DNA from: Antedon bifida
Taxonomy: Eukaryota > Echinodermata > Crinoidea > Comatulida > Antedonidae
Direction of reading: 5' to 3'
NCBI GenBank assembly: GCA_963402885.1
Contig: OY727103.1
Coordinates: 3,882,501-3,946,500 of the forward strand
Length of the DNA stretch: 64,000 nt
The notes below the pieces were generated by a model. It ran no database searches. It had not been told where the DNA came from and was given only the letters and a program-made list of their open reading frames with translations. Of the stretch, positions 937 through 54,856 are shown piece after piece (positions within the stretch are counted from its first letter, which is position 1; every line of letters begins with the position of its first letter). The position numbers and the translations under genes were made by a program.

Positions 937-937
937 A

Positions 938-2664: not shown

Positions 2665-5600
2665 ATACCAACCTATGATTGGGACGACCAAACACAACAG
2701 CAAATACTTGGATCGTTTTATTACGGTTATATAATAGGCGGACTGCCGGGCGGTTGGTTTGCTGGTAAAATTGGCGGGAAACGATCAATGTTAATAGTTC
2801 TTCTGTTGCAAAGTTTGTTGTGTGCCATGATCCCGTGGACTGCAGACGTTGGAACCAGTCTGCTGATCATTGTACGAGTTTTACAAGGCGTCACAGAAGT
2901 TAGTGTACAAGATATTTTCAATTTTGTACTACAGTATTTTGACAAGGACGGTAACGTTTACGCACTATTTACACACTCACACACGAAAACCTTTCAGAAG
3001 ACAATGGCTATAGTGCGTCAAACAACATTACGCAAAACACCCAATAAACAATGAAAAGAATGTGATGTGTGTCGTGCGTACAATACGTTTACGCATTATT
3101 TACCGTAACAACACTACGATATATATTGTTATAACGATAACGTTTCAGACGACAATGGCGATAGTACGTAACACGTACGTTACATAACACAAACAAAAAA
3201 CACACACAAAACGTAAAACACAATAAAATGACTATATGATGTGTTGCGTAACGGTAATACGTTTCTGGAAACGTTATCATTTTAGATATTTTACTTTCAG
3301 GGATTAACCATGCCGGCGATATACATCACTTTAAGAAAATGGATTGTTCCGTCTGAACGGAGTACATTAGTATCTATTGCATGTTCTGGTAAGTTCAACT
3401 CATGGCGTAGCAGAAAGCTATGGCCTAGATAATGAGATTAGATTGAGGAAGTCATCCTGTAAGAAGGACGTATACGTAACACATGTGAGTTGACAGTATT
3501 AATAATCTATCGCTTGTGATTGGTCAACTTACTTGCGTTGGGCTTACGTCATCGTTAGTCCCAGATAGTAGGAACCAATGTTAAAGTTTAGAAAAAAGAA
3601 ATCTCTCTTTATTCACACATCCAAATCTGTTTCCCGCCTTGTAGAGGTCATTACTGACATTATAAAAGCTAAAAAGGATCAATGTGGGAACAGAAGGGTA
3701 TTTAGAACGAGGGTGAAATCGAAACCTGATGTATATACCGTTTACTTTCTTTAAAGGCTCGTGTATAGCTGAAGTTTTCTGTTACCCACTATCTACGTGG
3801 ATTTCTGACTCTTCCCGTTTAGGTGGATGGCCATCATCATACTACATTTTCAGTAAGTTTTTATTCTTCACCTCAAATCAATAAGCACTACTAGTTTTTC
3901 ACCATCAAACTTTTTTCTAAACAACCACTTTCTTCTTGTTTTTAGGTACCGTTGGTGTTTTATTCGCAATAATATTCAAAACTTTCATTTACGACGACCC
4001 AGTTGACGATCCTTATGTTACAACAAGGGAAGTTGAATATTTGAAAAGTTTTCAATTTGACGAAAATAAGGTAAAGTTTCAAGTAATAAGGTAATGATGA
4101 TGATGCATTGTTATAATCGTCGTAAAGCTTCGTTCTTGACGAAAGCGCACAGCAAGTTCACCAATCATGACGCGATTTTTCCGAATACGATTGTAGCGCC
4201 CGACCCATGAATTGCGCCTGCGTCGTTCAGTGCGCGAGTCCCAAGTGGGAAACAATATATTAAGGAGACTGGTGTAGTACACTGTTGAGTAATTACTCCT
4301 TCATTTATCCTGCTGTGATTAATGCAATCTAACAACAGGATGCTGCACTTCAGGGATCAAAGGACTATCTGTGGCTGCGACACGATTAGTTCCAACAGAC
4401 ACAGAGCGCGCCGCGGAGAATAATGTACAGTTACTGTTGGTATTTGTCGCAGCCAGACATAAGATCAAAGGACTGTTACGAGTTCCTATCTTGGCAAGGT
4501 GAGCTCCGTGTACCGTGGTTAGATTGCCTTGCTGTGATCAAACTGTACTTCTTTGTAGGACATACCGGTTCCATGGTGTGATATGTTGACATCAACTGCA
4601 GTGTGGTCTCTCATCTTTGCTTACACGGCGTACTGTTTCAGTTTTTACTTCATACTTATGGAAGAACCAATTTTTTTATTTCTATTAGGATTTAATACAA
4701 CAAAGGTAAGTGAACTCTTTTTATTTATTTATTTATCCGTTTTCCACCTAACCTTCAGAATTTGACGACAGCATAGAAGATTAAAAACTATTGTTCCAAC
4801 TATAAACTAAAACCTAGGAAAACACCAAAATAACATTTCTCACTTTTATGTCATTTACACAATAATTATGTCCATTTATTTATTCAGGGTTTCTACAGTC
4901 GCTTTTGATTTTTACTTCTTTTCTACATCCCACCTCTAGACCGAAATCAGTTTCATACGTATAATACTTGAGCTCACAATTTCGTATTATGTTGACAAAA
5001 ATCAAAACGCCGACTTAAGGGCCTTTCACACCTGTTCCGGCACGGTTCCGGTCCGACGAATCGAACATCACTGTTTCGTTTTCACGACGCTCCACGCGGC
5101 TATGCGCCAATCGATATGCGCGTAGCCGCGTGAAAACGAAACACTGACGTTCGATTGGATTTTACGTCGGAACAGGTGTGAAAGGCCCTTTAAACAAGAC
5201 AATAACTACTATACTGGGCAAGTCTACTAGCTCTGGTGTGGATGTCGCTTAGCATGTGTTTTGACCTGTTTTATTTGACGTCATCCTTCGGTGGTGCAGT
5301 TAATTTTAATTTCTAGAATTAAACATAGAAAGTAACCTTATCGGACTATAACATTTTGTCTTGTACTTCTAGATTGCAATTTTAACATCAATTCCACCGA
5401 TTCTGGAATTTGCAGTTACGCTGCTGTCTGGTGTGGCTGCTGACGTCATCATTCGGCGGGAATACATGAATGTTCTAAATACTAGGAAGTTTTTTATGAT
5501 TTCACGTAAGATTTAAATCATTACTCGTTTTTCTTTATAAACAACGGTGCTTTATAATTTTTATAATCTTACGTAAGATGGAACGTTTAATTTTTTTATT

Positions 5601-6459
5601 TTTTTTTATGTTCGTACCTTGATTAATATAGCTCCACTCACTCAGGCTTGCCTTTTGGAGATTCACACCTTCTTTTGCGTTATATTTTTTATTATACAGA
5701 AATATTTCGAAATAGAAATGTTGACATTCTTTTATGATTATCTGAAGAAATGTTATGATTTGTAGGCCTACGTTACATGTTTACGTTTCATTGTTGTTAT
5801 TGATTTTGTTTCTGCTTTTGAAGGAAATAAATGTTTATTTTGATTGATAGGTTTGCATTGCTTTGCAACTAACTTCGGCCTGAATATATCTCTTTCTCTC
5901 TTGAATTAAAGTATTTTAAACTTTGGTACGAATTTCCATGACTTTTTTTTGTAGATATGGGAATACCTGCCCTGTGTCTGTGCTGTATTGGATTCTTTGA
6001 AAACCATGCAATCGAGGTTATACTTCTTACAGTCGCATTTGCATTTGGTGGAATATATGCGACGAGCACACTTACAAACATAATGGAGATATCAAAGGAA
6101 CACTCACAAATAATCGTAGGAATGGTGACAACTGGATCTGCTGCGGTTGGTTTTATTGGTCCACTTATTCTTGGAGCTTTGATCAAAGAAGATGTAAGTA
6201 TTAAGTTTGATTGAAAACATCCATCCATCACGCGTCCTGTTTACGAGTTTAAATCTGAGTTTTTTTGTTTGGTTTTTTTTTTCAGAATACAGCCAATCAG
6301 TGGTCTTTGATGTTTAGAATAATTGCTGCTTTCCATATTTTTGCAATGATTTTCTTTCTAATATTTGCAAAAGCAGAGCAACAAGAATGGTCACATGGAA
6401 ATATTACAAAACAAGAGATGAAAGCATACAACACTATACAAGATGAAAGTGGTGACTAA
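2665..6459 (+). CDS. Unit 1: SLC17-family (sialin/VGLUT-like) transporter, exons 2-9, exon 1 not found
   Basis: Exons by comparison with the other copies: 2665-2898, 3301-3388, 3757-3852, 3946-4070, 4559-4705, 5373-5505, 5955-6193 and 6286-6459, all with GT donors and AG acceptors. Together they encode 411 residues plus stop. Seen: the TM2 signature WDDQTQQQILGSFYYGYI, then GGLPGGW and GGKR, TM4 RVLQGVTEGL, the PSERS loop and the C-terminal HSQIIVGM. Known: SLC17 proteins are 12-TM organic-anion carriers of lysosomal, vesicular or plasma membranes. The N-terminal exon with TM1 is missing between the satellite and exon 2, so the gene is 5'-truncated unless exon 1 lies before the window. It is the most diverged 5' member of the array, with LPGGWFA where the others mostly have LPSGWLA. 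The substrate is unknown. Confidence 0.8.
3505..3578. mobile_element. Half-MITE (Harbinger-like family) in intron 3 of unit 1
   Basis: The sequence ATCGCTTGTGATTGGTCAAC followed by CTTGCGTTG and TAGTAGGAACCA matches the right half of the MITE at 938-1116. No intact left end is visible. Confidence 0.6.
5018..5189. mobile_element. Palindromic MITE, second family, TTA target duplication
   Basis: The terminal inverted repeats AGGGCCTTTCACACCTGTTC match exactly at both ends, and the interior is a long imperfect palindrome (TCGAAC..GTTTCGTTTTCACG..). TTA flanks both ends (5015-5017 and 5190-5192). It sits in intron 6 of unit 1. Decayed relatives lie at 39611-39768 and 50712-50870. Confidence 0.88.
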
Positions 6460-7243: not shown

Positions 7244-10200
7244 ATGAAACGATATTTTGTAGCAGTAACGTGCTGTTTATCATGGATTTGTGTTTACTGT
7301 ACCAGATTGAACATGAACATTACCATTATAAGCATGGTAAACAAATGGAACACCACAGAAGAACAGAAATCAAATCATAATGCGACAACGATTTCAGATG
7401 ACAGTGCAACACATTTGGTAAGTGTCCTAGTGGCGTTACTTTCCATATACGCTCATAACCCAGTTAAGTTAGTTTTAAAGTCCAATTTCTCACGTTTTTT
7501 TAGATCTAATAAAGGTCACAAACAACATATAAATGTAAAAATAAACACTGAGATAACGTTTTTCGTCTTTAAACGGTTAAAAATGTGAAAAATATTACTC
7601 CATGGTCGATTCTAATAATTTTAGCGGCCCGCTATAAATCCCAACATGCATTGCCCGCAAATTGGTATTTTAGCCTACAGCTAGCGTACTGTGTCGTACG
7701 TTACCGATGTATCTAGCTAGGCCGCTACTAAACTAAGCCTAGCTAGGCTAGGCCTAAAGACCGTTCACGAGAGGACATTCACCGGGAGCTACTTAGGTAG
7801 TGCATTGTTTCTCTATTTTTATCATAATTTACCATAAAACGTACATTTAAGACAAGGAATAACCTGGTTTAATGTTTTTTAAAGTAATATTATATGCATT
7901 ATTATTTTCAAAACGTCACAAATAGGGAATGGGTCTTTAAGATAAGAGTTACTTTAGGTCAAAGTTTAAGATTTTAATATACATGACAACTGGAACAAAA
8001 AATCTAAATCTCGGAGAAATTATTATTTTAAAACATTTTGTCATACACATTGTGCTATGTTCTGTGTATACGATTTTGCTTTATAGATACCAACTTTTGA
8101 TTGGGACGACCAAACCCAACAACATATACTTGGATCGTTTTATTACGGTTATATAATAAGCGGACTGCCGAGCGGTTGGTTGGCTGGTAAAATTGGCGGA
8201 AAACGATCAATTGTAATAGTTCTTCTGTTGCAAGGTTTACTGTCTGCCATGATACCTTGGGCTGCCGGCGTTGAAACCAGTCTTCTGACCATCGTACGGG
8301 TTTTACAAGGCGTCATAGAAGTTAGTGTCTTTATTGGCAGTTCAATTATTTTGCACTGTATGGAGAAACGATTGTTTTTTTTCAATGGGTCGCCAATACC
8401 ATTGGCTATTGACTAGGATGTGTAACGCCATAACGTTACAATTTGGTTCCCACTAGGACGCAGCGCGCGCAAGTACGTAAGCGCAACGCAATTAATTTGA
8501 CCAAGTTACACGCGCGCTCTGGATTTCCCAAACTCTCGTTTGTCATTGGTTAACAACCTTTGTTACGCATACGTTATTGCTACTATTGATAGGGCGTAAA
8601 AACGTACGTTACGCAACACACAACCAAAAAGAAAAAATTGTGCTGCGTAACGGTAATACGTCGTTTAAATGGTAGTACGTGTTTTTTTTCAACCGCTATA
8701 AAAATTATTTATATTTCCAGGGATTACTCATGCCGGCGGTTTATATCACTTTAAAAAAATGGATTGTTCCGTCTGAACGGAGTACATTATTATCTATTGC
8801 ATATTCTGGTAAGTAAGTGTACAAGAAAAAGTTTTTTTGCGTGTTTTTATTGTTCACTATTATTACAGTTTAATAGTGTAGACAGAGCTTAAAGATGTAT
8901 TGTCCCTCAAAAACATGAAAAATGAAGATTAATTAAATCAGATTTTGAATATGTTATTTTGTAGTTTTAATAAAGTTTATCACCTCCATAGAAAAAAACC
9001 CGAAAAAAAAATGTTTTCACTTATAAAATGACAAAATAAATGGTTAAATTCAACCAACAATCCATTGGCTGGCAGCCAATTTGACCATTTGTTTGCTTTA
9101 AATTACATTTTTCAGGTAAATACATTTTTTTTCCGATACAATTTTTGGTCAAAGTGGATAACTATTATGTTACATTAAAATGGAATATTCAACCAAATTT
9201 TTTTAAAGAATTATTTTTTCAGTGGGACAATACATCTTTAAGAAAGCAAATTTTCTTCTTTGTTGAACATAATGCTTGGACTTAATAGTACATCGTAAGT
9301 AATTTTTACCAATCACGACACGATAGGTCATCCAAACTGTCGCTTATGATTGGTCACTTGTGGGAATCAAGCTTAAAGCTACTGAAAAAAAATGTTTAAC
9401 GTTTGAAAACTGTATGTTTGTTTTCTAAAGGCACGAGCATAGCTGAAGTTTGCTGTTATCCTTTATCTATGTGGATTTCTACTTCTCCCAGTTTAGGAGG
9501 ATGGCCGACGTCATATTATACTTTCAGTGAGTTTAACCTAACAATATTAATAATAATAATAATATAAACACTATTTAAAGAGAATAAAGAGAATAGGACA
9601 GTACTTTAGTGAGCCGGGTTAAATAAAATGTAAACACATTAACAAGATAACAGAAAAAACGTGATTAAATATCAACTATCGCATATATTATACTGCAAAT
9701 GATGATTGTTGATTAAATAAAATTGAATTGGCATTTTAACTAAAACATACTCCTAAACTATCTCGTCAGTTCGCAAATAATATTCTTTTTGTATTTTTGG
9801 TAAAGTAAATACTTACAGTTGAGAGATTGTTTCTGGTTCCACTTTACAATAATAATAAGCGGGTTGCTTCTGAATGTGACTTATCAAACCCAAACATACT
9901 TTCTTTAGAAATATTTAAATGATCATTAATATTTTGATGTATATTAATATATGCATTTTCTCATAATAGCAACCATTTCTTCTTCGTTTTAGGTACCATT
10001 GGTGTTTTATTATCAATAATATTCATAGCTTTCGTTTTTGATAATCCTGTTGACGATCCTTATATTTCAACACAGCAAGTCGAATATTTGAAAAGTTTTG
10101 AAGTTAAAGACTCTAATAAGGTATTATAATGGGAGGAGTCAAGCTGACATGTTTGTAATCAGCGTCTGAATTGAGTCATGTGTTAATGAATATTCATTAA

Positions 10201-12338
10201 TCTGTAGTTGAGTTAAATCATCGATCATTCGGTGATAAACACATTTTAAATGCAAACGTTTTTTTAATCAGGACATACCGGTTCCATGGTGTGATATGTT
10301 GACATCAACTGCAGTGTGGTCTATCATTTTTGCTTACACGGCGTACAGTTTCAGTTTTGGTTTTATTCTTACTGAAGGACCAAATTTTTTATTGATATTT
10401 GGATTTGATCCAACAATGGTAAGGAAAACTCTTTTTATTTCATTTACTCCATGTTTTTCCAAACAGCGAATATAGGCTACCTGTTAACTCCGTTCAAGCA
10501 TGTAGGTATAAAAATAAAAAGTCATTTATGTAAACGTGTTTGGTATCAACATTTAGGGATTTTTAAGCGGAAAGCAGTTTGATTGCGCAACTATTATATC
10601 ACAAAAGATAGCACTGCGCATGCCAAAGTTATGTGTTAGTTTGTGCATATTTGAGAATCTCGCCTCCTATACGATAGAGGGCTGACTGGAGGCGGCGGCT
10701 GACCTTGTCAAAAAAGTCCGCGCAGCGCGCTGTCGACACACAAGGCTTGACTTTGAAAACACCATGGCGATATCCTGTTCACGCGCTACAATACATTCGA
10801 CCTCTTTCCTTCTAATGTACAACCTATCTCTGGCCTGCCGGCCTTACCAAATGCATTATTACGTTGTTCAGATACCAACAGTAAACACTATCACTATAAA
10901 TATATGATTCTGTAACAGAAGAGTAACTAGCACCATCACATTCACATCGGGACGCGCGCAACCCACGGACGATAGCGCAACGCAATTGATTTGACCAATC
11001 ACAAGCGACAGATTATATGAACTGCGCTTGTTGTCCACTCATACGGTGGCGGAGTGAAAAATATCACTGACAAAATATCGGAATATAATATATTGAAAAA
11101 AAGACGTCATAGGCTGTGTTTCCGCAGCCAAAAATTAACCGATAATTAACCGATAAACTGCCTTTGGAAACGGGGTTTAACATATTTCACTCGAGAAAAA
11201 TTAACCGATAATTATCTCATTCAAATCGGATAATTATCGGATAAATGGGATCATTGTTAACCTTTGACATGAAGGACAATGTGTTGCAATAATGTTATTG
11301 GACATCTGGTTGTTCGGTAATGACTGATCATGAGCACACTATTGGCACATTAACCGATAATTTTGTTTTGGCTGCGGAAACACGGCCAATGAAGAGCAGA
11401 AAGTATTATTTTTCCAAGGCAGAAACCATAAATAATAATAAGGAATGAATTAATGATAAAATAACCTAAATATTTCTAGAAACTAGGCGTATACTATTTT
11501 TTTTCTGTATTTCTAGATCGCAATTTTAACATCAATTCCACCAATTCTAGAATTTATAGTTACGCTGCTGTCTGGTGTGGCTGCAGACGTCATCATTCGG
11601 CGGGAATACCTGAATGTTCTGAATACTAGAAAGTTTTTTATGATTTTACGTAAGATGAAATTGTTCATTTTGTGGGGTTTTTTTAAATTATTAAATGCAT
11701 TCTTAAATTGTGACTGCTTCTTTCATTTTGTTGACGATTACATTTACATTTACTAACTATGGCCTGCCTATTATATCACCTGTTTTATTTAAAATATTTC
11801 AAAATTAAAAGGAATTTCCATGACTTATTTGTAGATATGGGAATACCTGCTATTTGTCTATTTTTCATTGGATACTTTGAAAACCATGCAGCCAAGTGTG
11901 TTATACTCCTTACAGTGGCGTTTGCTTCTACAGGAATGTATACGACGAGCACACTTACAAACATAATGGAGATATCAAAGGAACACTCGCAAATAATCGT
12001 AGGAATGGTGACAACTGGAGCCGCTGCGGTTGGTTTTATTGGTCCACTTATTCTTGGAGCTTTGATCAAAGAAGATGTAAGTATTAAGTTTGATTGAAAA
12101 CACCTCATCACGCGTCCTGTTTACGAGTTTAAATCTGAGTTTTTTTGTTTGTTTTTTTCCCCAGAATACAGCCAATCAGTGGTCTTTGATGTTTAGAATA
12201 ATTGCTGCTTTCCATATTTTTGCAATGATTTTCTTTCTAATATTTGCAAAAGCAGAGCAACAAGAATGGTCACATGGAAATATTACAAAACAAGAGATGA
12301 AATCATACAACACTATACACGATAACAATGAAAAGTAA
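7244..12338 (+). CDS. Unit 2: SLC17-family transporter, complete nine-exon gene
   Basis: Exons: 7244-7417, 8087-8320, 8721-8808, 9431-9526, 9993-10120, 10272-10418, 11517-11649, 11835-12076 and 12165-12338, giving 471 residues. Introns follow phases 0,0,1,1,0,0,1,0. Start choice: the MKRYF start is shared by all copies with exon 1 and opens directly into TM1, which carries the family arginine (CTRLNMNI). A lumenal loop follows with sequons NTT and NAT, then TM2 HILGSFYYGYI and TM4 RVLQGVIEG. The Arg and the second acidic residue that matter in VGLUT/sialin TM4 are kept. The TM7 arginine typical of VGLUTs is not (Tyr in AYSFSF), so a glutamate-carrier role is not supported. The family exports organic anions by proton- or potential-driven transport; the substrate here is unknown. 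Exon 6 ends in DPTM, as in unit 4. Confidence 0.88.
8443..8597. mobile_element. Decayed Harbinger-like MITE, intron 2 of unit 2
   Basis: TTGGTTCCCACTAGGACGCA at the left, and the internal motifs GCGCAACGCAATTAATTTGACC and TTTGTCATTGGTTAACAA, relate it to the MITE at 938-1116. The right end is degraded. The same insertion is present at matching positions in units 3, 4, 5 and 8 (about 15174, 21160, 27860 and 44552), so it predates their duplication. Confidence 0.7.
8888..9242. mobile_element. Foldback MITE, third family, intron 3 of unit 2
   Basis: The ends are inverted copies: CTTAAAGATGTATTGTCCC (8888-8906) and GGGACAATACATCTTTAAG (9224-9242). The interior is AT-rich and includes the inverted motif TTGGCTGGCAGCCAA. 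The element is shared by units 2, 3, 4, 5 and 8. In units 3, 4 and 5 the right end has been deleted, leaving GGGGGATAATGCTTGG. A similar half end occurs at about 56232 in the plexin 5' region. Confidence 0.75.
11112..11397. mobile_element. Foldback element, fourth family, intron 6 of unit 2
   Basis: The ends form an inverted repeat, GGCTGTGTTTCCGCAGCCAA at the left and its near-perfect complement ending in GCGGAAACACGGCC at the right. Several inverted ATTAACCGATAATT motifs lie inside. A copy sits at the equivalent place in unit 4 (23800-24085) and nowhere else in the array. I could not define a target duplication. Confidence 0.75.
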
Positions 12339-13971: not shown

Positions 13972-16900
13972 ATGAAACGATATTTTGTAGCAGTAATGTG
14001 CTGTTTATCATGGATTTGTGTTTACTGTACCAGATTGAACATAAACATTACCATTATAAGCATGGTAAACAAATGGAACACCACAGAAGAACAGAAATCA
14101 AATCATAATGCGACAACGATTTCAGATGACAGTGCAACAAATTCGGTAAGTGTCCTAGCGGTGTTACTTTCTATATTCGTTCATAACCCAATTAAGTTAG
14201 TTTTAAAGTCCAATTTCTCACGTTTTTTAGATCTAATTAAGGTCACAAACAACATATAATGTAAAAATAAACACTGTATGGTCCTACTGAGATAACGTTT
14301 TTCGTCTTAAACGGTTAAAAATGTGAAAAATATTACTCCATGGTCGATTCTAATAATTTTAGCGGCCCGCTATAAATACCAACATGCATTGCCCGCAAAT
14401 TGGTATTTTAGCCTACAGCTAGCTTACGGTGTTCGTACGTTACCGATGTATACTACTACTACTAAACTAAGCCTAGCTAGGCTAGGCCTAAAGACCGTCC
14501 ACGAGAGGACATTCACCGCGAGCTACTTGGGTAGTGCATTGTTTCTCTATTTTTATCATAATTTACCATAAAACGTACATTTAAGACAAGGAATGACCTG
14601 GTTTAATGTTTTTTAAAGTAATATATATGCATTATTATTTTCAAAACATCACAAATAGGGAATGGGTCTTTAAGATAAGAGTTACTTTAGGTCAAAGTTT
14701 AAGATTTTAATATACATGACAACTGGAACAAAAAATCTAAATCTCGGGGAAATTATTATTTTAAAACATTTTGTCATACACATTTTTTATGTTCTGTGTT
14801 TACGATTTTGCTTTATAGATACCAACTTTTGATTGGGACGACCAAACCCAACAACATATACTTGGATCGTTTTATTACGGTTATATAATAAGCGGACTGC
14901 CGAGCGGTTGGTTGGCTGGTAAAATTGGCGGAAAACGATCAATTGTAATAGTTCTTCTGTTTCAAGGTTTACTGTCTGCCATGATACCTTGGGCTGCCGG
15001 CGTTGGAACCAGTTTTCTGACCATCGTACGGGTTTTACAAGGCGTCATAGAAGTTAGTGTCTTTATTGGCAGTTCAATTATTTTGCACTGTATGGAGAAA
15101 CGATTGTTTTTTTTCAATGGGTCGCCAATACAATTGTCTATTGACTAGGATGTGTAACGCCATAACGTTACAATTTGGTCCCCACTAGGACGCAGCTCAA
15201 GTACGTAAGCGCAACGCAATTAATTTGACCAAGTGTGACACGCGCGCTCTGGATTTCCCAAACTCTCGCTTGTCATTGGTTAACAACCTTTGTTACGCAT
15301 ACGTTATTGCTACTATTGATAGGGCGTAAAAACGTACGTTACGCAACACACAACCAAAAAGAAAAAATTGTGCTGCGTAACGGTAATAAGTCGTTTAAAC
15401 GGTAGTACGTGTTTTTTTTTCAACCGTTATAAAAATTATTTATATTTCCAGGGATTAATCATGCCGGCGGTTTATATCACTTTAAAAAAATGGATTGTTC
15501 CGTCTGAACGGAGTACATTATTATCTATTGCATATTCTGGTAAGTAAGTGTACAAAAAAAAGTGTTTTTGCGTGTTTTTATGGTTAATATCACTATTATT
15601 ACAGTTTAATAGTGTAGACAGAGCTTACAGATGTATTGTCCCTCAAAAACATGAAAAATGAAGATTAATTAAATCAGATTTTGAATATGTTATTTTGTAG
15701 TTTTAATAAAGTTAATCACCTCCATAGAAAAAAACCCGAGAAAAAAGTAATGTTTTCACTTACAAAATAAATGGTTAAATTTAACCAAAAATCCATTGGC
15801 TGGCAGCCAATTTGACCATTTGTTTGCTTTAAATTACATTTTGTCAGGTTGAATACATTTTTTTTCCGATACAGTTTTTAGTCAAAGTGGATAACTATTA
15901 TGTTACATTAAAATGGAATATTCAACCAAATTTTTTTAAAGAATTATTTTTTCAGGGGGATAATGCTTGGACTTAATAGTACATCGTAAGTAATTTTGAC
16001 CAATCACGACACGATAGGTCATCCAAACTGTCGCTTATGATTGGTCACTTGTGGGAATCAAGCCTTAAGCTACTGAAAAAAAAAATTTAACGTTTGGAAA
16101 CTTTATGTTGTTTACTTTGTTTTCTAAAGGCACGAGCATAGCTGAAGTTTGCTGTTATCCTTTATCTATGTGGATTTCTACTTCTCCCAGTTTAGGAGGA
16201 TGGCCGACGTCATATTATACGTTCAGTGAGTTTAACCTAACAATATTAATAATAATAATATAAACACTATTTAAAGATAATAAAAAGATTAGGACAGTAC
16301 TTTAGTGAGCCGGGTTAAATAAAATGTAAACACATTAACAAGACAACAGAAAAAACGTGATTAAATATCAACTATCGCATATATTATACTGCAAATGATG
16401 ATTGTTGATTATATAAAATTGAATTGGCATTTTAACTAAAACATACTCCTAAACTATCTCGTCAGTTCGCAAATAATATTCTTTTTGTATTTTTGTTAAA
16501 GTAAATACTTACAGTTGAGAGATTGTTTCTGGTTCTACTTTACAATAATAATAAGCGGGTTGCTTCTGAATGTGACTTATCAAACCCAAACATACTTTCT
16601 TTAGAAATATTTAAATGATCATTAATATTTTGATGTATATTAATATATGCATTTTCTCATAATAGCAACCATTTCTTCTTCGTTTTAGGTACCATTAGTG
16701 CTTTATTATCAATAATATTCATAGCTTTCGTTTTTGATAATCCTGTTGACGATCCTTATATTTCAACACAGCAAGTCGAATATTTGAAAAGTTTTGAAGT
16801 TAAAGACTCTAATAAGGTATTATAATGGGAGGAGTCAAGCTGACATGTTTGTAATCAGCGTCTGTTGAGTCATGTGTTAATGAATATTCATTAATCTATA

Positions 16901-38696: not shown

Positions 38697-38700
38697 AAAT

Positions 38701-39768: not shown

Positions 39769-39891
39769 ACCACCGTTAACGTTGGAAACCGAGTGTCGTT
39801 TCCCATTTTTTTCTTTACAGGTTCGTGCATAGCTGAAGTTTGCTGTTACCCTTATCTACTTCTCCCAGTTTAGGTGGATGGGCGACATCAT

Positions 39892-40221
39892 TTGTTTTTG
39901 TCTTTTATGGGCTCGTCTCACTTTTATTTCAGTTTACAGTACAAATTATTTCAATATATACAAGTTCTCTATATAAGGCATATAGTATGTATATTCTCTT
40001 GTATTATTAAAATTAAAAACAAAGGTCATGTTCTCCATTTTTCTTGTCACATGCAAATGACGCGTACATATTTGTGATTATTGTTAAAACGTAGTATATT
40101 TAAGAATGAATAAAAAAAAAATGTACAATTATTAAAAACATTTACTTATGACCTACATACAATATATATACAGACATGATGAATACTGCGGATTTCATAT
40201 AAATTATTAAAATTATCTAAC
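39892..40221. mobile_element. 330-bp insertion in exon 4 of unit 7 with 9-bp flanking repeat
   Basis: CGACATCAT (39883-39891) is repeated at 40222-40230, and joining the two sides restores the exon order. The insert is AT-rich with no clear terminal inverted repeats and no ORF of note. A 9-bp duplication is the length made by Mutator-like transposases, but without termini this is only a suggestion. Confidence 0.6.
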
Positions 40222-41905
40222 CGACATCATATTATACTTACAGTAAGTTAATATTAACACACACCTATAAAAGTACTATTAGGCCTATTACTCAATAAAT
40301 GTATAATGTTCACTAATGCCACTACAGTCTGTTTCATCTATCCATCTAGTTTCATAATCTATAGAAAAACGCCAAACATGAAAAGACTATTTGTCAGTAA
40401 CTGTTAAAAAATTATAGTAGAGTGGTACAGTCATTTCTCAAGCAGGTTAACAGAACAGAAAGAAAGAACAGTAAATAGAAAGAAAAGTATAATAACTCCT
40501 ACAAAGCAAGTTATACAATATTATTTCAATTAGGCCTAAGCCTACATATGAAAGACAACTTTGGCAATTCAACCAAATCAGTCATTCTTAGGCTGGTTAT
40601 TGTTATGTAGGACTACTGGCTTTGAATGTTTTTGTTAAATAAATTGTAATGAAATCTTATTGATACAAAACAACCACGTCAACCACCTTCTAAGCAACCA
40701 TTGCATTCTTGTTGTAGGCTCTCTTTGTGCTCTTTTGGCAATAATATGCATAGCTTTTATTTATGACGACCCAGTTGACGATCCTTATGTTTCAACAAAG
40801 GAAGTCGAATATTTGAAAAGTTTTGAACTCGAACAAAAAAAGTCTTTCATTTGTACATAGTTGTACAATAAAATAAATAAAATGACAATAAAAGTACTAT
40901 CGTATCGTAAATTCAATTTAAAAAATTGTCATTCGACAGACTAAAAAGAATATAAGTTTTACCTTTAGTAACACCTTTTAAAAAAGAAATTATTACCTGA
41001 TCGGTAAATTTAAGAAAGAAATGAGTAAACCGGGAGAAACCCCATTGTGTGACAGGAAGACTAGTGTGTTTTTATTTTTAAAACTATGACTTAATTCATT
41101 CTTGGTTTTTTTTTATAAACAACGTTTAACATTAAAAAAACAAAAACATTTTTGCATCACAATGCTTGCTATAGAATCCAATATAATTGTATTGCATAAC
41201 AAAAACTCAAATCATTTATAACTGGGCTGTTATTTTACAACCTAAATTATTGCAACCAAAATACATCATTGCCAAGTTCTATTTATTTTGGTGATTATTA
41301 CTTTTCCTAGGTTTTTCCATTGCATTCCATAATTTGGCCTATTTTCTTTTTTATGCCTATTTGTTACAATTTCCATGACTTATATGTCGATTTGGGAATA
41401 CCTGGTATGTGTCTATTTTTCATTGGATACTTTGAAAACCATGCAGCCGAGTGTGTTATACTTCTTACAGTGGCGTTTGCTTCTACAGGAATGTATGCGA
41501 CGAGCACACTTACAAACATAATGGAGATATCAAAGGAACACTCACAAATAATCGTAGGAATGGTGACAACTAGATCTGCTGTGGTTGGTTTTATTGGTCC
41601 ACTTATTCTTGGAGCTTTGATCAAAGAAGATGTAAGTATTAAGTTTGATTGAAAACACCTCATCACGCGTCCTGTTTACGAGTTTAAATCTGAATTCATT
41701 TGTTTGGTTTTTCCAGAATACAGCCAGTCAGTGGACTTTGATGTTTTTAATGATTGCTGCCGTCCATGTTTTTGCAATGATTTTCTTTCTAATATTTGCA
41801 AAAGCAGAGCAACAAGAATGGTCACATGGAAATATTACAAAACAAGAGATGAAATCATACAACACTATACACGATGACGTTATACAAAATGAAAGCGGTG
41901 ACTAA

Positions 41906-43340: not shown

Positions 43341-46300
43341 ATGAAACGATATTTTGTAGCAGTAATGTGCTGTTTATCATGGATTTGTGTTTACTGTACC
43401 AGATTGAACATAAACATTACCATTATAAGCATGGTAAACAAATGGAACACCACAGAAGAACAGAAATCAAATCATACTGCGACAACGATTTCAGATGACA
43501 GTGCAACACATTTGGTAAGTGTCCTAGCGGCGTTACTTTCCATATTCGCTCATAACCCAGTTAAGTTAGTTTTAAAGTCCAATTTCTCACGTTTTTTAGA
43601 TCTAATTTATAAGGTCAAAAACAACATATAATGTAAAAATAAACACTGTATGGTCCTACTGAGATAACGTTTTTCGTCTTTAAACGGTTAAAAATGTGAA
43701 AAATATTACTCCATGGTCGATTCTAATAATTTTAGCGCCCGCTATAAATCCCAACATGCATTGCCCGCAAATTGGTATTTTAGCCTACAGCTAGCGTACG
43801 GTGTTCGTACGTTACCGATGTATACTAGCTAGGCCTACTAAACTAAGCCTAGCTAGGCTAGGCCTAAAGACCGTCCACGAGAGGACATTCACCGCGAGCT
43901 ACTTAGGTAGTGCATTGTTTCTCTATTTTTATCATAATTTACCATAAAACGTACATTTAAGACAAGGAATGACCTGGTTTAATGTTTTTTAAAGTAATAT
44001 ATATGCATTATTATTTTCAAAACGTCACAAATAGGGAATGGGTCTTTAAGATAAGAGTTACTTTAGGTCAAAGTTTAAGATTTTAATATACATGACAACT
44101 GGAACAAAAAATCTAAATCTCGGGGAAATTATTATTTTAAAACATTTTGTCATACACATTGTGCTATGTTCTGTGTATACGATTTTGCTTTATAGATACC
44201 AACTTTTGATTGGGACGACCAAACCCAACAACATATACTTGGATCGTTTTATTACGGTTATATAATAAGCGGACTGCCGAGCGGTTGGTTGGCTGGTAAA
44301 ATTGGCGGAAAACGATCAATTGTAATAGTTCTTCTGTTTCAAGGTTTACTGTCTGCCATGATACCTTGGGCTGCCGGCGTTGGAACCAGTCTTCTGACCA
44401 TCGTACGGGTTTTACAAGGCGTCATAGAAGTTAGTGTCTTTATTGGCAGTTCAATTATTTTTCACTGTATGGAGAAACGATTGTTTTTTTTCAATGGGTC
44501 GCCAATACCATTGGCTATTGACTAGGATGTGTAACGCCATAACGTTACAATTTGGTTCCCACTAGGACGCAGCGCAAGTACGTAAGAGCAACGCAATTAA
44601 TTTGACCAAGTGTGACACGCACGCTCTGGATTTCCCAAACTCTCGTTTGTCATTGGTTAACAACCTTTGTTACGCATACGTTATTGCTGCTATTGATAGG
44701 GCGTAAAAACGAACGTTGTGACGAAATTGTGCTGCGTAACGGTAATACGTCGTTTAAACGGTAGTACGTGTTTTTTTTTCAACCGTTATAAAAATTATTT
44801 ATATTTCCAGGGATTAATCATGCCGGCGGTTTATATCACTTTAAAAAAATGGATTGTTCCGTCTGAACGGAGTACATTATTATCTATTGCATATTCTGGT
44901 AAGTAAGTGTACAAAAAAAAAGTGTTTTTGCGTGTTTTTATGGTTAATATCACTATTATTACAGTTTAATAGTGTAGACAGAGCTTAAAGATGTATTGTC
45001 CCTCAAAAACATGAAAAATGAAGATTAATTAAATCAGATTTTGAATATGTTATTTTGTAGTTTTAATAAAGTTAATCACCTCCATAGAAAAAAACCCGAA
45101 AAAAAAGTAATGTTTTCACTTATAAAATGACAAAATAAATGGTTAAATTCAACCAAAAATCCATTGGCTGGCAGCCAATTTGACCATTTGTTTGCTTTAA
45201 ATTACATTTTTTCAGGTAAATACATTTTTTTTCCGATACAATTTTTGGTCAAAGTGGATAACTATTATGTTACATTAAAATGGAATATACAACCAAATTT
45301 TTTTAAAGAATTATTTTTTCAGGGGGACAATACATCTTTAAGAAAGCAAATTTTCTTCTTTGTTGAACATAATGCTTGGACTTAATAGTACATCGTAAGT
45401 AATTTTGACCAATCACGACACGATAGGTCATCCAAACTGTCGCTTATGATTGGTCACTTGTGAGAATCAAGCTTAAAGCTACTGAAAAAAAATGTTTAAC
45501 GTTTGGAAACTGTATGTTGTTTACTTTGTTTTCTAAAGGCTCGTGCATAGCTGAAGTTTGCTGTTATCCTTTATCTATGTGGATTTCTACTTCTCCCAGT
45601 TTAGGAGGATGGCCGACGTCATATTATACTTTCAGTGAGTTTAACCTAACAATATTAATAATAATAATATAAATAATAATATAAACACTATTTAAAGAGA
45701 ATAAAGAGAATACGACAGTACTTTAGTGAGCCGGGTTAAATAAAATGTAAACACATTAACAAGATAACAGAAAAAACGTCCGATTAAATATCAACTATCG
45801 CATATATTATACTGCAAATGATGATTGTTGATTAAATAAAATTGAATTGGCATTTTAACTAAAACATACTCCTAAACTATCTCGTCAGTTCGCAAATAAT
45901 ATTCTTTTTGTATTTTTGGTAAAGTAAATACTTACAGTTGACAGATTGTTTCTGGTTCCACTTTACAATAATAATAAGCGGGTTGCTTCTGAATGTGACT
46001 TATCAAACCCAAACATACTTTCTTTAGAAATATTTAAATGATCATTAATATTTTGATGTATATTAATATATGCATTTTCTCATAATAGCAACCATTTCTT
46101 CTTCGTTTTAGGTACCATTGGTGTTTTATTATCAATAATATTCATAGCTTTCGTTTTTGATGATCCTGTTGACGATCCTAATATTTCAACACAGCAAGTC
46201 GAATATTTGAAAAGTTTTGAAGTTAAAGACTCTAATAAGGTATTATAATGGGAGGAGTCAAGCTGACATGTTTGTAATCAGCGTCTGTTGAGTCATGTGT

Positions 46301-48362
46301 TAATGAATATTCATTAATCTATAGTTGAGTTAAATCATTGATCATTTTGTGATAAACACATTTTAAATTCAAACGTTTTTTTATTCAGGACATACCGGTT
46401 CCATGGTGTGATATGTTGACATCAACTGCAGTGTGGTCTATCATTTTTGCTTACATGGCTTACACTCTCATTTTTTTCTTTATTCTCACTGAAGGACCAA
46501 TTTATTTATTGATATTTGGATTTGATCCAACAAAGGTAAGGAAAACTCTTTTAATTTTATTTACTCCATGTTTTTCCAAACAGCGAATATAGCTATAGCT
46601 ATAGTTCAAGCATGTAGGTATAAAAATAAAAATAAAATGTCATATGTAAACGTGTTTGGTATCAATATTTAGGGATTTTTAAGTGGGAAGCAAATATTTT
46701 GATTGCGCAACTATTATATCCCAAAAGATACCACAGCGCATGCCAAAAGTATGTGTTTGTTTGTGTATATTTGAGACTCTCGCCTCCTATACGACAGAGG
46801 GCTGACTAGAGGCGGCGGCTGACATTGTCAAAAAAGTCCGCGCAGCGCGCTGCCGGCACGCAAGGCTTTGACTTTGAAAACACCATGGCGATATCCTGTT
46901 CACGCGCTACAATACATTCGACCTCTCTCCTTCTAATTTACAACCTATCTCTGGGGCGGATTGCAATATAAAGACTTTGTCTTAGGCTTAGATCTAAGCC
47001 CCTCGCTATACAATCTTTGGTTCCAGAGCCATATAAAGAGTTACGACATTGAAAATTAAAAGCCATTTTTGTGTCAAAGAATTCGCACACTGAGGGTGCG
47101 CGCATCTCTTTTGTATAGCGTTTTCCTATAGTTCATGCATTATTTTTAGATTTTTAGTTAAAATCAGTATCGAAAGTACGAACCAATTTTATATACCATC
47201 GAGTAAACATTCTAGAAATAACGCGCGATTAACCAAATTTTTCCCTTACGTAAATTTATATATAGATTAGTAAGAAAAAGTATAATACTGTGTAGTATTT
47301 CAAATATGCTACCCTCTAATAATAATGGAGCGATCCATTTGATGATCTGGGTTTTCTAGTTCCATTTTGGAACTAGAAAACTCAGATCTTGATATCTGAG
47401 TTTTCTAGATCTAGAAAAGTCAGATATCTGAGTTTTCTAGATCTAGAAAACTCAGATATCTGAGTTTTCTAGATCTGAGTTTTCTAGACACCCGAATATA
47501 ACCTAGGACTAGGCGTATACTATTTTTTTTCTGTATTTCTAGATCGCAATTTTAACATCAATTCCACCAATTCTAGAATTCATAGTTACGCTGCTGTCTG
47601 GTGTAGCTGCTGACATCATCATTCGGCGGGAATACCTGAATGTTCTGAATACTAGAAAGTTTTTTATGATTTTACGTAAGATGAAATTGTTTATTTTGTG
47701 GGTTTTTAAAAAAATTATTAAATACATTCTTAAATTGTGACTGCTTCTTTCATTTTGTTGACGATTACATTTACATTTACTAACTATGGCCTGCCTATTA
47801 TATCACCTGTTTTATTTAAAATATTTCAAAATTAAAAGGAATTTCCATGAATTATTTGTAGATATGGGAATACCTGCTATTTGTCTATTTTTCATTGGAT
47901 ACTTTGAAAACCATGCAGCCGAGTCTGTTATACTTCTTACAGTGGCGTTTACTTGTGGAGGAATGTATACAGGCACATTTACAAACATAATGGAGATATC
48001 AAAGGAACACTCACAAATAATCGTAGGAATGGCGACAACTGGATCTGCTGTGGTTGGTTTTATTGGTCCACTTATTCTTGGAGCTTTGATCAAAGAAGAT
48101 GTAAGTATTAAGTTTGATTGAAAACATCCATCCATCACGCGTCCTGTTTACGAGTTTAAATCTTAGTTTTTTTGTTTGGTTTTTCCAGAATACAGCCAGT
48201 CAGTGGACTTTGATGTTTTTAATGATTGCTGCCGTCCATGTTTTTGCAATGATTTTCTTTCTAATATTTGCAAAAGCAGAGCAACAAAAATGGTCACATG
48301 GAAATATTACAAAACAAGAGATGAAATCATACAACTCTATACACGATGAAAGTGGTGACTAA
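43341..48362 (+). CDS. Unit 8: SLC17-family transporter, complete nine-exon gene
   Basis: Exons: 43341-43514, 44196-44429, 44811-44898, 45539-45634, 46112-46239, 46389-46535, 47543-47675, 47862-48100 and 48189-48362, giving 470 residues. Exon 1 ends in THL as in unit 2; exon 4 begins GSCIAEV as in unit 1. Exons 5-8 resemble unit 5, with changes TLIFFF in exon 6, GTFTNIM and GMATTG in exon 8. The last part of exon 9 and the whole 3' flank switch to the unit 6 type (YNSIHDESGD), so the gene is a chimera. Exon 5 has FDDPVDDPN in place of FDNPVDDPY. Family signatures are intact; the substrate is unknown. Confidence 0.88.
44552..44704. mobile_element. Decayed Harbinger-like MITE, intron 2 of unit 8
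   Basis: It has the same position and type as the element at 8443-8597, beginning TTGGTTCCCACTAGGACGCA. Confidence 0.65.
44984..45342. mobile_element. Foldback MITE, third family, intron 3 of unit 8
   Basis: Both inverted ends are present (CTTAAAGATGTATTGTCCC and its complement), as in unit 2. Units 3-5 have lost the right end. Confidence 0.75.
47351..47488. repeat. Palindromic TCTAGA minisatellite before exon 7, unit 8
   Basis: This is the longest version, with successive AACTCAGATC..GATATCTGAGTT, AAGTCAGATATCTGAGTT and AACTCAGATATCTGAGTT palindromes joined by TTTCTAGATCTAGAAA. It lies about 55 bases before exon 7. Confidence 0.85.
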
Positions 48363-49020: not shown

Positions 49021-49790
49021 TGTCAATAAAGATGTTCTCAGAATAGATGTGTCCCGGATCCTCAATAAAGATGTCCTCAGAATAGGAATGTCCTCTCAAT
49101 AAGGATGTCCTTAGAATAGGATTGTCCCTCCATAAGGATGTCCTCAGAATAGGAGTGTCCCCTCAATAAGGAAGTCTTCAGAATAGGAGTGTCCCCTCAA
49201 CAAGGATGTCCTCAGAATAGGAATGTCCCCTCAATAAGGATGTCCTCATAATAGGAATGTCCCTTCAATAAGGATGTCCTCATAATAGGAGTGTCCCCTC
49301 AATAAGGATGTCCTCAGAATAGGAGTGTCCACTCAACAAGGATGTCCTCAGGATAGGAGTGTCCCCTCAACAAGGATGTCCTCAGAATAGGAATGTCCCC
49401 TCAATAATGATGTCCTCAGAATAGAAGTATTCCCTCAACAAGGATGTCCTCAAAATAGGAGTGTCCTCTCAATAAGGATGTCCTCAGAATAGGAGTGTCC
49501 CTTCAATAAGGATGTCCTCAGAATAGGAGTGTCCCCTCAACAAGGATGTCCGCAAAATAGGAATGTCCTCTCAATAAGGATGTCCTTAGAATAGGATTGG
49601 CCCTCAATAAGGATGTCCTCAGAATAGCAGTGTCCCCTCAATAAAGATGTCCTCAGAATAGGAGTGTCCCCTCAACAAGGATGTCCTCAGAATAGGAATG
49701 TCCCCTCAACAATGATGTCCTCAGAATAGGAATGTCCCCTCAATAAGGATTTCCTAAGAATAGGAGTGTCCTCTCAATAAGGTTGTCCTG
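49021..49790. repeat. 34-bp minisatellite, about 22-23 units
   Basis: It has the same unit as the array at 37791-38696. It is four units shorter, with the missing units near its start. Confidence 0.95.
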
Positions 49791-49794
49791 AAAT

Positions 49795-50100: not shown

Positions 50101-50711
50101 TCTTATTTTGGTAGGATGGGTAGACAGTTTTCACTCGAGCTCCTGTGAAACTATACCAGTCAGCTCTCATAGGAGAGGTTTAAAGTGCTGGAGAACGGAG
50201 TGGTGTAAATGATTCCTCATTAGCCTTGAACCTCTTATTTCACTTCATGAAAGGAACATCATAAAAACTGTCAATAAAATTCGTCAAGATCCCGATCACC
50301 TTCTAAATAAATTCTTTAAGCTTAGCCAGACAGGTAGACTGATCACCAGCTGTCCTTGATATGTTGCGTACACGGTAATAAGTCGTTCACACACAAGTGA
50401 CGTAAACACCCCCTTATTTACTTTCAGGAATTATTCATGCCAGCGATATACATCACTTTAAGAAAATGGATTGTTCTGTCTGAACGGAGTACATTAGTAT
50501 CTATTGCATATTCGGGTAAGTATAATTTAAAATGTAAAAGAAAGCTAATCGCTTTCTGGTTTGATGGCTTGGTTCCCATTTGGACGCAACGCAAAGTTAG
50601 AGTAAAATAAGGATGTCTGACAACAAATTCGGAACAATCGTTATCAATGAGCTAGTTGAATGATTTAAGCGATCGACATTTTTGATAAAGAAAATTCAGA
50701 ATTACTGAATA

Positions 50712-50870
50712 AAAGGTCTTTCACAACTGTTCCGGCACGGTTCCGGTCCGGTGAATCGAACATCAATGTTTCGTTTTCACTATACGCTCCACACGGCCAG
50801 TTATGCGCCAATCGATATGCGCCGCGTGAAAATGAAACATTGACGTTCGATTGGATTGTCCGGCGCCTTA
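50712..50870. mobile_element. Decayed MITE of the 5018 family, duplicate
   Basis: This is the counterpart of 39611-39768 within the duplicated segment. Confidence 0.7.
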
Positions 50871-50992
50871 ACTACCGTTAACGTTGGAAACCCGAGTGTC
50901 GTTTCCCATTTTTTCTTTACAGGTTCGTGCATAGCTCAAGTTTGCTGTTACCCTTATCTACTTCTCCCAGTTAGGTGGATGGGCGACATCAT

Positions 50993-51314
50993 TTTTTTTG
51001 TCTTTTATGGGCTCGTCCCACTTTTATTTCAGTTTGCAGTACAAATTATTTCAATATATACAAGTTCTCTATATAAGGCATATAGTATGTATATTCTCTT
51101 ATTATTAAAATTAAAAACAAAGGTCATGTTCTCCATTTTTCTTGCAAATGACGCGTACATATTTGTGATTATTGTTAAAACGTAGTATAATTATTTAAGA
51201 ATGAATAAAAAAAATTTACAATTATTAAAAACATTTACTTATGACCTACATACAATATATATACAAACATGCTGAATATTGCGGATTTCATATAAATTAT
51301 TAAAATTATCTAAC
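50993..51314. mobile_element. Insertion in exon 4 of unit 9 with 9-bp flanking repeat
   Basis: CGACATCAT occurs at 50984-50992 and 51315-51323, around the same insert as in unit 7. It was therefore inherited from the common pseudogene ancestor. Confidence 0.6.
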
Positions 51315-53059
51315 CGACATCATAATTATACTTACAGTAAGTTCAATATTAATAACACACACCTATAAAAGTACTATTAGGCCTATTACTCAATAAATGT
51401 ATAATGTTCACTAATGCCACTACAGTCTGTTTCATCTATCCATCTAGTTTCATAATCTATAGAAAAACGCCAAACATGAAAAGACTATTTGTCAGTAACT
51501 GTTAACAAATTATAGTAGAGTGGTACAGTCAATTCTCAAGCAGGTTAACAGAACAGAAAGAAAGAACAGTAAGTAGAAAGAAAAGTATAATAACAAAGCA
51601 AGTTATACAATATTATTTCAATTAGGTTTAAGCCTACATAATAAAAGACAACTTTGGCAATTCCACCAAATCAGTCATTCGTAGGCTAGTTATTGTTATG
51701 TAGACTACTGGCTTTGAATGTTTTTGTTAAATAAATTGTAATGAAAGCTTATTGATACAAAACAATTACCACGTCAACCACCTTCTAAGCAACCATTGCA
51801 TTCCTGTTGTAGGTTTTCTTTGTGCTCTTTTGGCAATAATATGCATAGCTTTCATTTATGACTACCCAGTTGACGATCCTTATGTTTCAACAAAGGAAGT
51901 TGAATATTTGAAAACAAAAAAGGTAAAGTCTTTCATTTGTACATAGTTGTACAATAAAATAAATAAAATGACAATAAAAGTACTATCGTATCGTAAATTC
52001 AATTTTAAAAAATTGTCCTTCGACAGACTAAAAAGAATATAAGTTTTACCTTTAGTGGCACCTTTTAAAAAAGAAATTATTACCTGATCGGTAAATTAAA
52101 GAAAGAAATGAGTAAACCGGGAGAAATCCCATTGTGTGACAGGAAGACTAGTGTGTTTTTATTTTTAAAACTATGACTTAATTCATTCTTGGTTTTTTTT
52201 TATAAACAACGTTTAACATTAAAAAAACAAAAACATTTTTGCATCACAATGCTTGCTATAGAATCCAATATAATTGTATTACATAACAAAAACTCAAATC
52301 ATTTATAACTGGGCTGTTATTTTACAACCTAAATTATTGCAACCAAAATACATCATTGCCAAGTTCTATTTATTTTGGTGATTATTACTTTTCCTAGGTT
52401 TTTCCATTGCATTCCATAATTTGGCCTATTTTCTTTTTTATACCTATTTGTTACAATTTCCATGACTTATTTGTAGATATGGGAATACCTGCTATTTGTC
52501 TATTTTTCTTTGGATACTTTGAAAACCATGCAGCCGAGTGTGTTATACTTCTTACAGTGGCGTTTGCTTCTACATAAATGTATACAGGCACACTTGCAAA
52601 CATAATGGAGATATCAAAACAACACTCGCAAATAATCGTAGGAATGGTGACAACTGGATCTGCTGTGGTTGGTTTTATTGTTTCACTTATTCTTGGAGCT
52701 TTGATCAAAGAAGATGTAAGCATCAGGGAGGATTGGAGGCACATGACCACGCGTAGGGCATGTGCCGCCGCGTGAGGAAAAATAACGTAAATGTAAAATA
52801 ACGTAGAATCAGACAGATGTGGTAGTACTTGAAGTAATGTTAAATAGTCTTTGAACAGACTTACATTACTCGTGACGTTGATGTTGTGTTCGATTGAAAA
52901 CAAATAATAATCTCTGATAATACTGATCGATATTTTTATATCAGTACCATGATCACATTCAAATCCTTTTAAGACCAGGTTATTATTATTATTATTTATT
53001 CAGGCAAAATATAATACAAATCAACACATTAAACAAACACAACACAAGAAGAAAATATA

Positions 53060-53412
53060 AAATCATAGTCACATAGCTGCCAGGAAAGCACACAAGCAGC
53101 CTAAGCCACTGTCATCTTAAATCATAGTCACATAGCTGCCAGGAAAGCACAAAAGCAGCCTAAGCCACTGTCATCTTAAATCATAGTCACATAGCTGCCA
53201 GGAAAGCACAAAAGCAGCCTAAGCCACTGTCATCTTAAATCATAGTCACATAGCTGCCAGGAAAGCACAAAAGCAGCCTAAGCCACTGTCATCTTAAATC
53301 ATAGTCACATAGCTGCCAGGAAAGCACAAAAGCAGCCTAAGTCACTGTCATCTTAAATCATAGTCACATAGCTGCCAGGAGCACAAAAGCAGCCTAAGCC
53401 ACTGTCATCTTA
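53060..53412. repeat. 59-bp tandem repeat, six units, intron 8 of unit 9
   Basis: Six near-identical units begin AAATCATAGTCACATAGCTG and end GCCACTGTCATCTT. The last unit has a small internal deletion (CCAGGAGCAC). It sits just after an AT-rich TTATTATTATTATTTATTCA tract, possibly the tail of a retroposon. Confidence 0.95.
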
Positions 53413-53490
53413 AATTTTCATAAATCATTTTAGATAGAATTATGTGGTGACATCAAATCTAACACACAACACTATAGCATATTACTTTAT

Positions 53491-53633
53491 TTCTACTTAG
53501 ACGCAGCGCAATGACGTAAGCGCAAGGCAATGACGTAGGCGCAACGCAATGACGTAGACGCATAATTGGTCAAATTACTATAGCGGTACGCTTACGTCCT
53601 CACGTTGAGTCAACAAAGTGGGAACAACGTTTT
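53491..53633. mobile_element. Decayed Harbinger-like MITE, intron 8 of unit 9
   Basis: The left end ACTTAGACGCAGCGCAATGACG, with three tandem GCAATGACGTA motifs, and the right end GTGGGAACAACGTTTTACG match the 938-1116 family with decay. Confidence 0.65.
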
Positions 53634-54856
53634 ACGCGGATAACAAATCTTCCTCAAATTGAATCAGTTTTAAAGAGCATGTTTTTTTTTTCAGAATACA
53701 GCCAATCAGTGGTCTTTGGTGTTTAGAATAATTGCTGCTGTCTCCAATTTTTTGCAATGATTTTCTTTCTAATATTTGCGAAAGCAGAGCAACAAGAATG
53801 GTCACATGCAAATATTACAAAACAAGAGATGAAATCATACAACACTATACAAGATGAAAGTGGTGACTAAATTAGAAACGAATGAAGCGTTTATTCGGTT
53901 ACACAAACGTCACAGTCAATGTTTAACTATCGTCTCTCTGAAACAAAAAGTTCGCTAAAACTCTGCGAACGGACGGACCGGTGATGGTTTTTACATTACA
54001 GTAACGTTATGGCTACACCGATAAATTAATTCCGTTTAGTTAGGCTAGGCAATCATTCTTATTGTATCTAACTTATTAAAATGAATCTATCTATTATGAA
54101 AATGTTGGTTTGAAGATGTCTTCGGTTTGCTTGAGCCCTCTATAATTATAACAACTTTTTTCTAAATACCGATAGTTAGCATTGGTGTTTCAAAAGAAGA
54201 TAACTGTACTGGTGTATGAAAAAATAAATTAATAATACTATTTAAAATTCAAATATTTAAAATTGAATACATTGCCAGAATGGCGAGAGGTTATTTGGTC
54301 GGTCACGTGTGTTTGTTTCTTTCTAAAGTGTATATTTGTTTGTTAGCAGGATTACCCAAAAAGGGTTACTTCATCGTCTTTAAAACTGGCAGTTGGCGAT
54401 CGAGACCGGAATCAATTGGCTTTTTAAAAACCGTATTAAAAAATCGGGGTTTTGTTTATGTGGACCCGCTTTGATATAAAATACTGTTATTTCAAAATAC
54501 GGTACTTAAATGTGTATTCTCAGCAAAAACAGGTCCTTATGTTATTGTTTGTCAGTATTTGCTTGTTTTAAATTTATTTTATTCTTGTTCTTTAGGCTAC
54601 ATGATTAAAAAAATATTTATAACAAATGTGCAATTTGTTCTCTTGTTGTGTTGTTTTTAAAATGTTTGTTTTACGCTCCTAACCTGGAAAAATTCAAACA
54701 ATTAAATCTATTCGACGTAAATCATCCAAAGGGAACGACTGAGGTACGTAGATAACGGCTTTAACCTTCCTCATCATGTTTTAATTGAGTAAACCCTCTA
54801 ATTTGAATAACTTGCTCATTTCACGGTTGAGTGATATTGCATAAGAGGTGCTTTGA

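Follow-up and report, generated by a model that had tools for sequence, protein, structure and literature searches.

A tandem array of SLC17-type carrier genes, with seven intact copies and two pseudogenes, in the crinoid Antedon bifida

A stretch of 64,000 nucleotides in the genome of the crinoid Antedon bifida (assembly GCA_963402885.1, contig OY727103.1, here C16, positions 3,882,501 to 3,946,500; hereafter the window) carries a tandem array of one SLC17-type carrier gene. Splice-aware alignment of a hand-built model of the third unit, U3, placed nine head-to-tail units at 2665-53861, all on the + strand (scores 759-2366); the best score on the opposite strand of the window in the same alignment was only 86. 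This bears out the original prediction, made from the letters of the window alone, that nine copies lie head to tail. Complete units have nine coding exons separated by GT-AG introns, and seven units (U1-U6 and U8) are intact, being free of internal stop codons and frameshifts, while U7 and U9 are pseudogenes. One unit had been thought 5'-truncated, leaving six with all nine exons. Position 2665 is the start of U1 exon 2, however, and exon 1 sits in the flanking sequence (C16:3882260-3882436); a whole-genome search also returned an exon-1 match whose end falls 57 bases before the window. The apparent truncation of U1 is a window-edge effect, and seven units are complete. No extra copies were found in 9.2 kb of upstream flank, in 9.6 kb of downstream flank or at 54001-64000 of the window. 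The features of the locus, in window positions, are as follows.

1..6459 in the window, + strand: U1, intact, nine exons, 470 amino acids (aa); exon 1 at -241 to -65
2665-2898, 3301-3388, 3757-3852, 3946-4070, + strand: U1 exons 2-5
4559-4705, 5373-5505, 5955-6193, 6286-6459, + strand: U1 exons 6-9, including the stop codon
1..937: satellite of about 70 bp period within U1 intron 1
7244..12338, + strand: U2, intact, nine exons, 471 aa; TATAAA 48 bases 5' of the ATG
13972..18449, + strand: U3, intact, 471 aa; TATAAA 46 bases 5' of the ATG
13972-14145, 14819-15052, 15452-15539, 16130-16225, 16689-16816, + strand: U3 exons 1-5
16966-17112, 17629-17761, 17946-18187, 18276-18449, + strand: U3 exons 6-9
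19958..25017, + strand: U4, intact, 468 aa; chimera
26658..31568, + strand: U5, intact, 470 aa
32838..37132, + strand: U6, intact, 469 aa; U1 and U6 have diverged most among the live copies
37793..38695: 34-bp minisatellite 5' of pseudogene U7
39327..41878, + strand: U7, pseudogene without exons 1-2, with a frameshift and a TGA
43341..48362, + strand: U8, intact, 470 aa; U3/U5-like body and U6-like 3' flank
49023..49789: 34-bp minisatellite, the same as at U7, 5' of pseudogene U9
50431..53861, + strand: U9, pseudogene with the U7 lesions plus further frameshifts and a TAA
6734..17481: two-unit block U2+U3, 96.5% identical to 19426-30172
19426..30172: two-unit block U4+U5, duplicate of 6734-17481
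37934..41670: minisatellite and pseudogene block, 95.9% identical to 49023-52754

A tiny additional U3 exon at 15956-15985 was dropped, as it introduced a stop codon and the frame is open without it. An Rfam scan of the window gave no match at gathering scores.

Full-length matches to known structures confirmed the SLC17-like identity first proposed for these proteins. In the Protein Data Bank (PDB), the U3 protein matched sialin, the transporter of sialic acid in lysosomes, with E = 2.5e-68 over residues 3-450 and VGLUT2 with E = 3.3e-57, and its sialin and VGLUT2/3 matches spanned 1e-52 to 1e-68. Against the NCBIfam model TIGR00894 (Na-dependent phosphate cotransporter subfamily), for which only U3 was scored, it reached 321.6 bits, below the 626.45 cut-off. 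The available text of PMC11649914 describes an arginine in transmembrane segment 1 (TM1) and an arginine and a glutamate in TM4 as conserved residues of SLC17. All three are present in 7/7 intact units. The TM7 arginine of VGLUT2, which we take to be R322, is replaced by tyrosine in six of the seven and by phenylalanine in the other. The original prediction was thus right on the residues kept and on the one missing, and had argued from the missing TM7 arginine for a separate substrate class. That argument does not discriminate, because sialin also lacks this arginine: the site is Tyr301 in human sialin and Asn in the sialin-like gene of the species itself. A stronger case for a class of its own, in substrate or in coupling, would rest on the change of sialin Glu171 to Gln together with variation at pocket sites.

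Indels in the five recent units (U2, U3, U4, U5 and U8) suggest that the reading frames are under constraint. In seven introns, with intron 6 excluded because it contains a non-homologous stretch, we counted 32 indels in 2650 columns, 24 of which are not multiples of three; the 1416 exon columns held just two, one of 9 bases and one of 3. No frame-shifting exon indel was observed, compared with 12.8 expected at the intron rate (P=2.7e-6), although each gap run was counted once per alignment position and these figures are approximate. Across all seven intact units, the ratio of nonsynonymous (N) to synonymous (S) substitution rates, dN/dS, was 0.62 (463 codons; 182 N and 97 S; N deficit p=0.00013), and the start codon and splice sites are kept in 7/7. 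These data indicate that the live reading frames are maintained by selection. Tests on 29 subset rows, for which U1 lacked its exon 1 (giving 0.61 for the seven units in place of 0.62), did not establish positive selection.

The array is one part of a larger family. The U3 protein had at least 95 matches in the genome and human sialin at least 94; these counts are lower bounds, and the weakest matches may be other genes of the major facilitator superfamily (MFS). By hand count, 63 of the 94 sialin matches are of the exon-2 type (running from query 51-63 to 134 or beyond): the array accounts for seven and the species' own sialin-like gene for one, and the other 55 lie, often clustered, on contigs C1, C7, C9, C10, C11, C12, C13, C14 and C15. 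From stretches of 11 cluster regions we built 23 gene models, some of them partial or frameshifted, with exon sizes mostly as in the array. A lineage-specific expansion under recent turnover had been predicted for the array; expansion and turnover both stand, and the scope was too narrow, as the genome holds many SLC17 clusters besides this array. Likewise, the shared nine-exon plan is confirmed and is not specific to the array, since the other clusters and the species' own sialin gene largely follow it too.

A tree was built from 28 rows, namely 25 radiation rows, the species' own sialin, human sialin and VGLUT2, with four models omitted. In it, the seven array units formed one clade (100/100) with C14a_2 and C11 as neighbours (100/99), and a 100/100 branch separated the 25 radiation rows from the other three. 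Rooting on VGLUT2 grouped the species' own sialin and the radiation to the exclusion of human sialin (95/91), with only three non-radiation rows, a long stem and a warning of long branches. An origin of the radiation from the echinoderm sialin line would fit this grouping, although the long branches leave us unsure. The mitochondrial COX1 gene (C27) reads AAA as Asn, ATA as Ile, AGR as Ser and TGA as Trp, which is the echinoderm code; the sites read through AAA and ATA are presumably conserved Asn and Ile residues in other animals. Among the matches listed in a literature search on SLC17 or sialin with echinoderm or expansion terms, we found no echinoderm SLC17 radiation, which is not proof that none has been described. 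On C7 (8.86-9.01 Mb), SLC17 exon matches repeat at about 59.1 kb (8910448/8969553, 8929944/8989045 and 8946706/9005807), which suggests either that a large segment was duplicated in tandem or that the assembly doubled it. Two pairs of closely similar SLC17 genes also occur across contigs, at C13:18077438/C14:10010849 (end branches 0.03 and 0.07) and C1:14215554/C10:10077955 (0.009 and 0.055); genes may have moved between chromosomes recently, or the assembly may be the cause.

Sialin residues R57, R168, E175 and Y119 are retained in 7/7 intact units, while E171 is replaced by Q and S61 by N in all of them. E171 and E175 are the proposed proton sites of sialin in the available texts of PMC11116495, PMC13207226 and PMC11649914; the proton-sensing pair therefore reads Q/E throughout the array. 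Among 26 radiation rows, D/Q was the commonest state (15 rows), followed by the Q/E of the array (7) and by Q/R, E/E, D/K and D/E, once each. The accessible part of PMC13207226 names ten residues of the sialin pocket (Y54, R57, Y119, H298, Y301, N302, F305, Y306, S411 and N430). Seven of these ten sites vary among the seven units, whereas 131 of the 436 sites aligned do so (Fisher p=0.0099); for the five recent units the figures are four of ten and 44 of 436 (p=0.012). On this set of residues, pocket variation exceeds expectation and is concentrated in TM7. Substrate diversification among the copies is the favoured but unproven reading of this pattern.

The N-terminus is as short as had been predicted, a property common to modelled radiation genes outside the array: these genes too begin MKR or MKQ right before TM1, and the modelled proteins start two residues ahead of the place of sialin Arg39. 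All 23 models with a first exon have an upstream in-frame stop and no intervening Met before the start ATG (in U2 the stop lies 32 codons upstream), and TATAAA occurs 40-48 bases 5' of the ATG in six of the seven intact array units. A DNA pattern for the MKRYF start proved too loose for counting (126 forward and 124 reverse matches, versus 104 and 87 for the control). We also discarded the idea that the species' own sialin gene needs an upstream exon for want of an ATG: its N-terminus begins either at an in-frame ATG that precedes the Arg39 place by 16 codons, with an acceptor-like CAG in between, or in an upstream exon joined at that site, and exon loss in the radiation is therefore only one possibility. 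At the other end, the tail K[QKH][EV][MI]K[SA]Yxx(hydrophobic), a relaxed pattern, occurs in 7/7 units and 18 of 26 radiation rows; of the eight rows without it, five end before the tail and three carry other tails. Many of the modelled radiation genes close with a sequence resembling KQEMKSYxx(I/L/M). This tail may act as a YxxPhi-type sorting signal.

Blocks that align over 10.9, 5.1 and 3.8 kb with 94-97% identity put repetition within the array far beyond chance. U4-U5 arose from U2-U3 by a dimer duplication, the two blocks being 96.5% identical over 10.9 aligned kb. U4 is a chimera. Its part from exon 1 to intron 5 shows 8 differences to U3 in 2994 aligned bases, 16 to U5 and 77 to U2, while 6 of 2058 bases set it apart from U2 in exons 6 through 9 and the introns between them. 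U8 likewise joins a body resembling U3/U5 to a 3' flank resembling that of U6. As predicted, two units are dead; both U7 and U9 lack exons 1-2, and in both the frame shifts at residue 181, a TGA stands at residue 265 and deletions occur at 176-180 and 252-258. Since these lesions are common to the two units, which show 95.9% identity across 3.8 kb with the 34-bp minisatellites included, duplication of the block followed the death of the gene. Exon 9 of the pseudogene U7 matches exon 9 of U3 at 162/162 bases. The pattern indicates that the array was shaped by recent unequal exchange and conversion, dead copies included. A 59-bp tandem repeat (53060-53415; 6.1 copies, 98% match) lies between the last two exon remnants of U9.

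We consider it probable that the locus is a local array, with seven genes intact and two dead, encoding major-facilitator carriers of the SLC17 sialin/VGLUT type within a genome-wide echinoderm radiation. As judged from sequence, the array is real, well formed and under selection, and represents a tandem expansion of a known carrier type. Repeated unequal exchange built it through the dimer duplication, the chimeric U4 and U8 and the copying of a dead unit with its minisatellite. The proteins would be organic-anion facilitators working by alternating access, in which the TM1 and TM4 arginines (U3 R21 and R129) hold the carboxylate. With the first proton-sensing glutamate lost (sialin E171, U3 Q132) and the second kept (E136), coupling to protons may be less strict than in sialin; VGLUT2 carries the same Q...E pair. 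The TM7 pocket differences would exist because the copies take different anions, and sorting would fall to the C-terminal YxxPhi-type signal because the N-terminal tail is nearly absent.

Several observations weigh against parts of this account. PMC11116495 tested E171 and E175, and its available text reports the double mutants rather than E171Q alone. Of the seven variable pocket sites, three (54, 301 and 305) owe their variation solely to U1 or U6, and site 411 falls within a gapped stretch. In the stretch 297-307, the five recent units vary at 6 of 11 sites (p=0.0002), a stretch picked after viewing the alignment. Among these five units dN/dS is 1.2, indistinguishable from neutral (p=0.31), and the excess in exons 6, 8 and 9 of U3/U5/U8 (20 N:1 S, p=0.025) is one of many subsets and uncorrected, so relaxed constraint after duplication may apply. 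U6 has no TATAAA within 120 bases 5' of its ATG, and an acceptor site may lie between the upstream stop and the ATG. C1_3, C13b_1 and C14d carry other tails, and the tree, with its long branches, was flagged as unsure by its own check.

The closest competitor, which we regard as possible and the less probable account, is a dosage array in which the copies share one substrate and multiply expression, the TM7 differences being drift. The U3 protein is 93.2-96.6% identical to those of U2, U4, U5 and U8, the 140 bases 5' of the ATG are identical in U3, U4 and U5, and the near-neutral dN/dS of the recent copies would be expected. Enrichment of variation at the published pocket sites, as far as these are given in the accessible text, argues against it, as do U1 and U6, which differ from U3 at 22% and 18% of residues yet keep intact frames. 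Relaxed genes of little function heading to death would account for two dead units in nine and, again, for the recent dN/dS; we find this improbable given the absence of frame-shifting indels, the ratio of 0.62 across all seven units and the start and splice sites retained in every one. Equally doubtful is a broader view in which exchange between live and dead units shuffles TM7, TM10 and TM12 blocks into many pocket variants, which, freed from strict proton coupling and an N-terminal sorting signal, would take up or export diverse anions, whether environmental or defensive. An assembly artefact, with haplotypes or wrongly expanded repeats of fewer genes, is very unlikely: the few differences between U3, U4 and U5 from exon 1 to intron 5 would suit it, but near-identical neighbours diverge strongly further 3', U1, U6 and both pseudogenes are clearly diverged, and the contig is 19.35 Mb long in an assembly of 27 contigs.

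Downstream of the array, an open reading frame (ORF) at 56328-57200 is plexin/MET-like (PDB Plexin A, E 7.6e-35), with no Pfam match at 0.001. Three MFS matches (PF07690; L003, L005 and L006) with long open frames lie 17-28 kb upstream of the window (C16:3854543-3865170). L005 matches Pfam MFS_1, and we take its ORF to be monocarboxylate-transporter-like; these genes were rejected as array members on that ground and because the 9.2-kb flank holds no SLC17 unit.

A large echinoderm SLC17 radiation would offer natural variants at the very residues singled out by structural work on sialin (E171, S61 and the TM7 pocket). Such variant sets could separate the determinants of substrate choice from those of proton coupling in SLC17.

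Local SLC17 duplications have precedents. The available text of PMC2824716 describes five in Drosophila and eight plus two in 'B. fluviatilis' as printed, taken to be the amphioxus B. floridae; no mention of sea urchin or Strongylocentrotus was found in that text. As described there, these expansions resemble the array in being lineage-specific local duplications of sialin-like genes and differ in that the array has more copies. VGLUT2 (SLC17A6, PDB 8sbe) also matches over its full length and shares the TM4 Q...E pair, but at 27.4% identity, with a TM7 Arg where the array has Tyr or Phe and with a longer N-terminus (the match begins at 69 of 7t3o). Human sialin (SLC17A5, PDB 8dwi/8u3d) matches U3 over its full length at 32.3% identity, with Arg57, Arg168, Glu175 and Tyr119 kept. 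In contrast to sialin, array proteins have two residues rather than 38 before the Arg39 place, carry a KQEMKSYxx(I) tail and show the changes E171 to Q, S61 to N, H183 to Y, H298 to Y/F and N430 to T. The species' own sialin-like gene (C9:603-607 kb) shares exon sizes of 88, 96, 128, 133 and 242 with the array, with 150 where the array has 147. It differs in its 52.4% identity to human sialin, in its longer N-terminus and in retaining E171/E175, H183 and H298.

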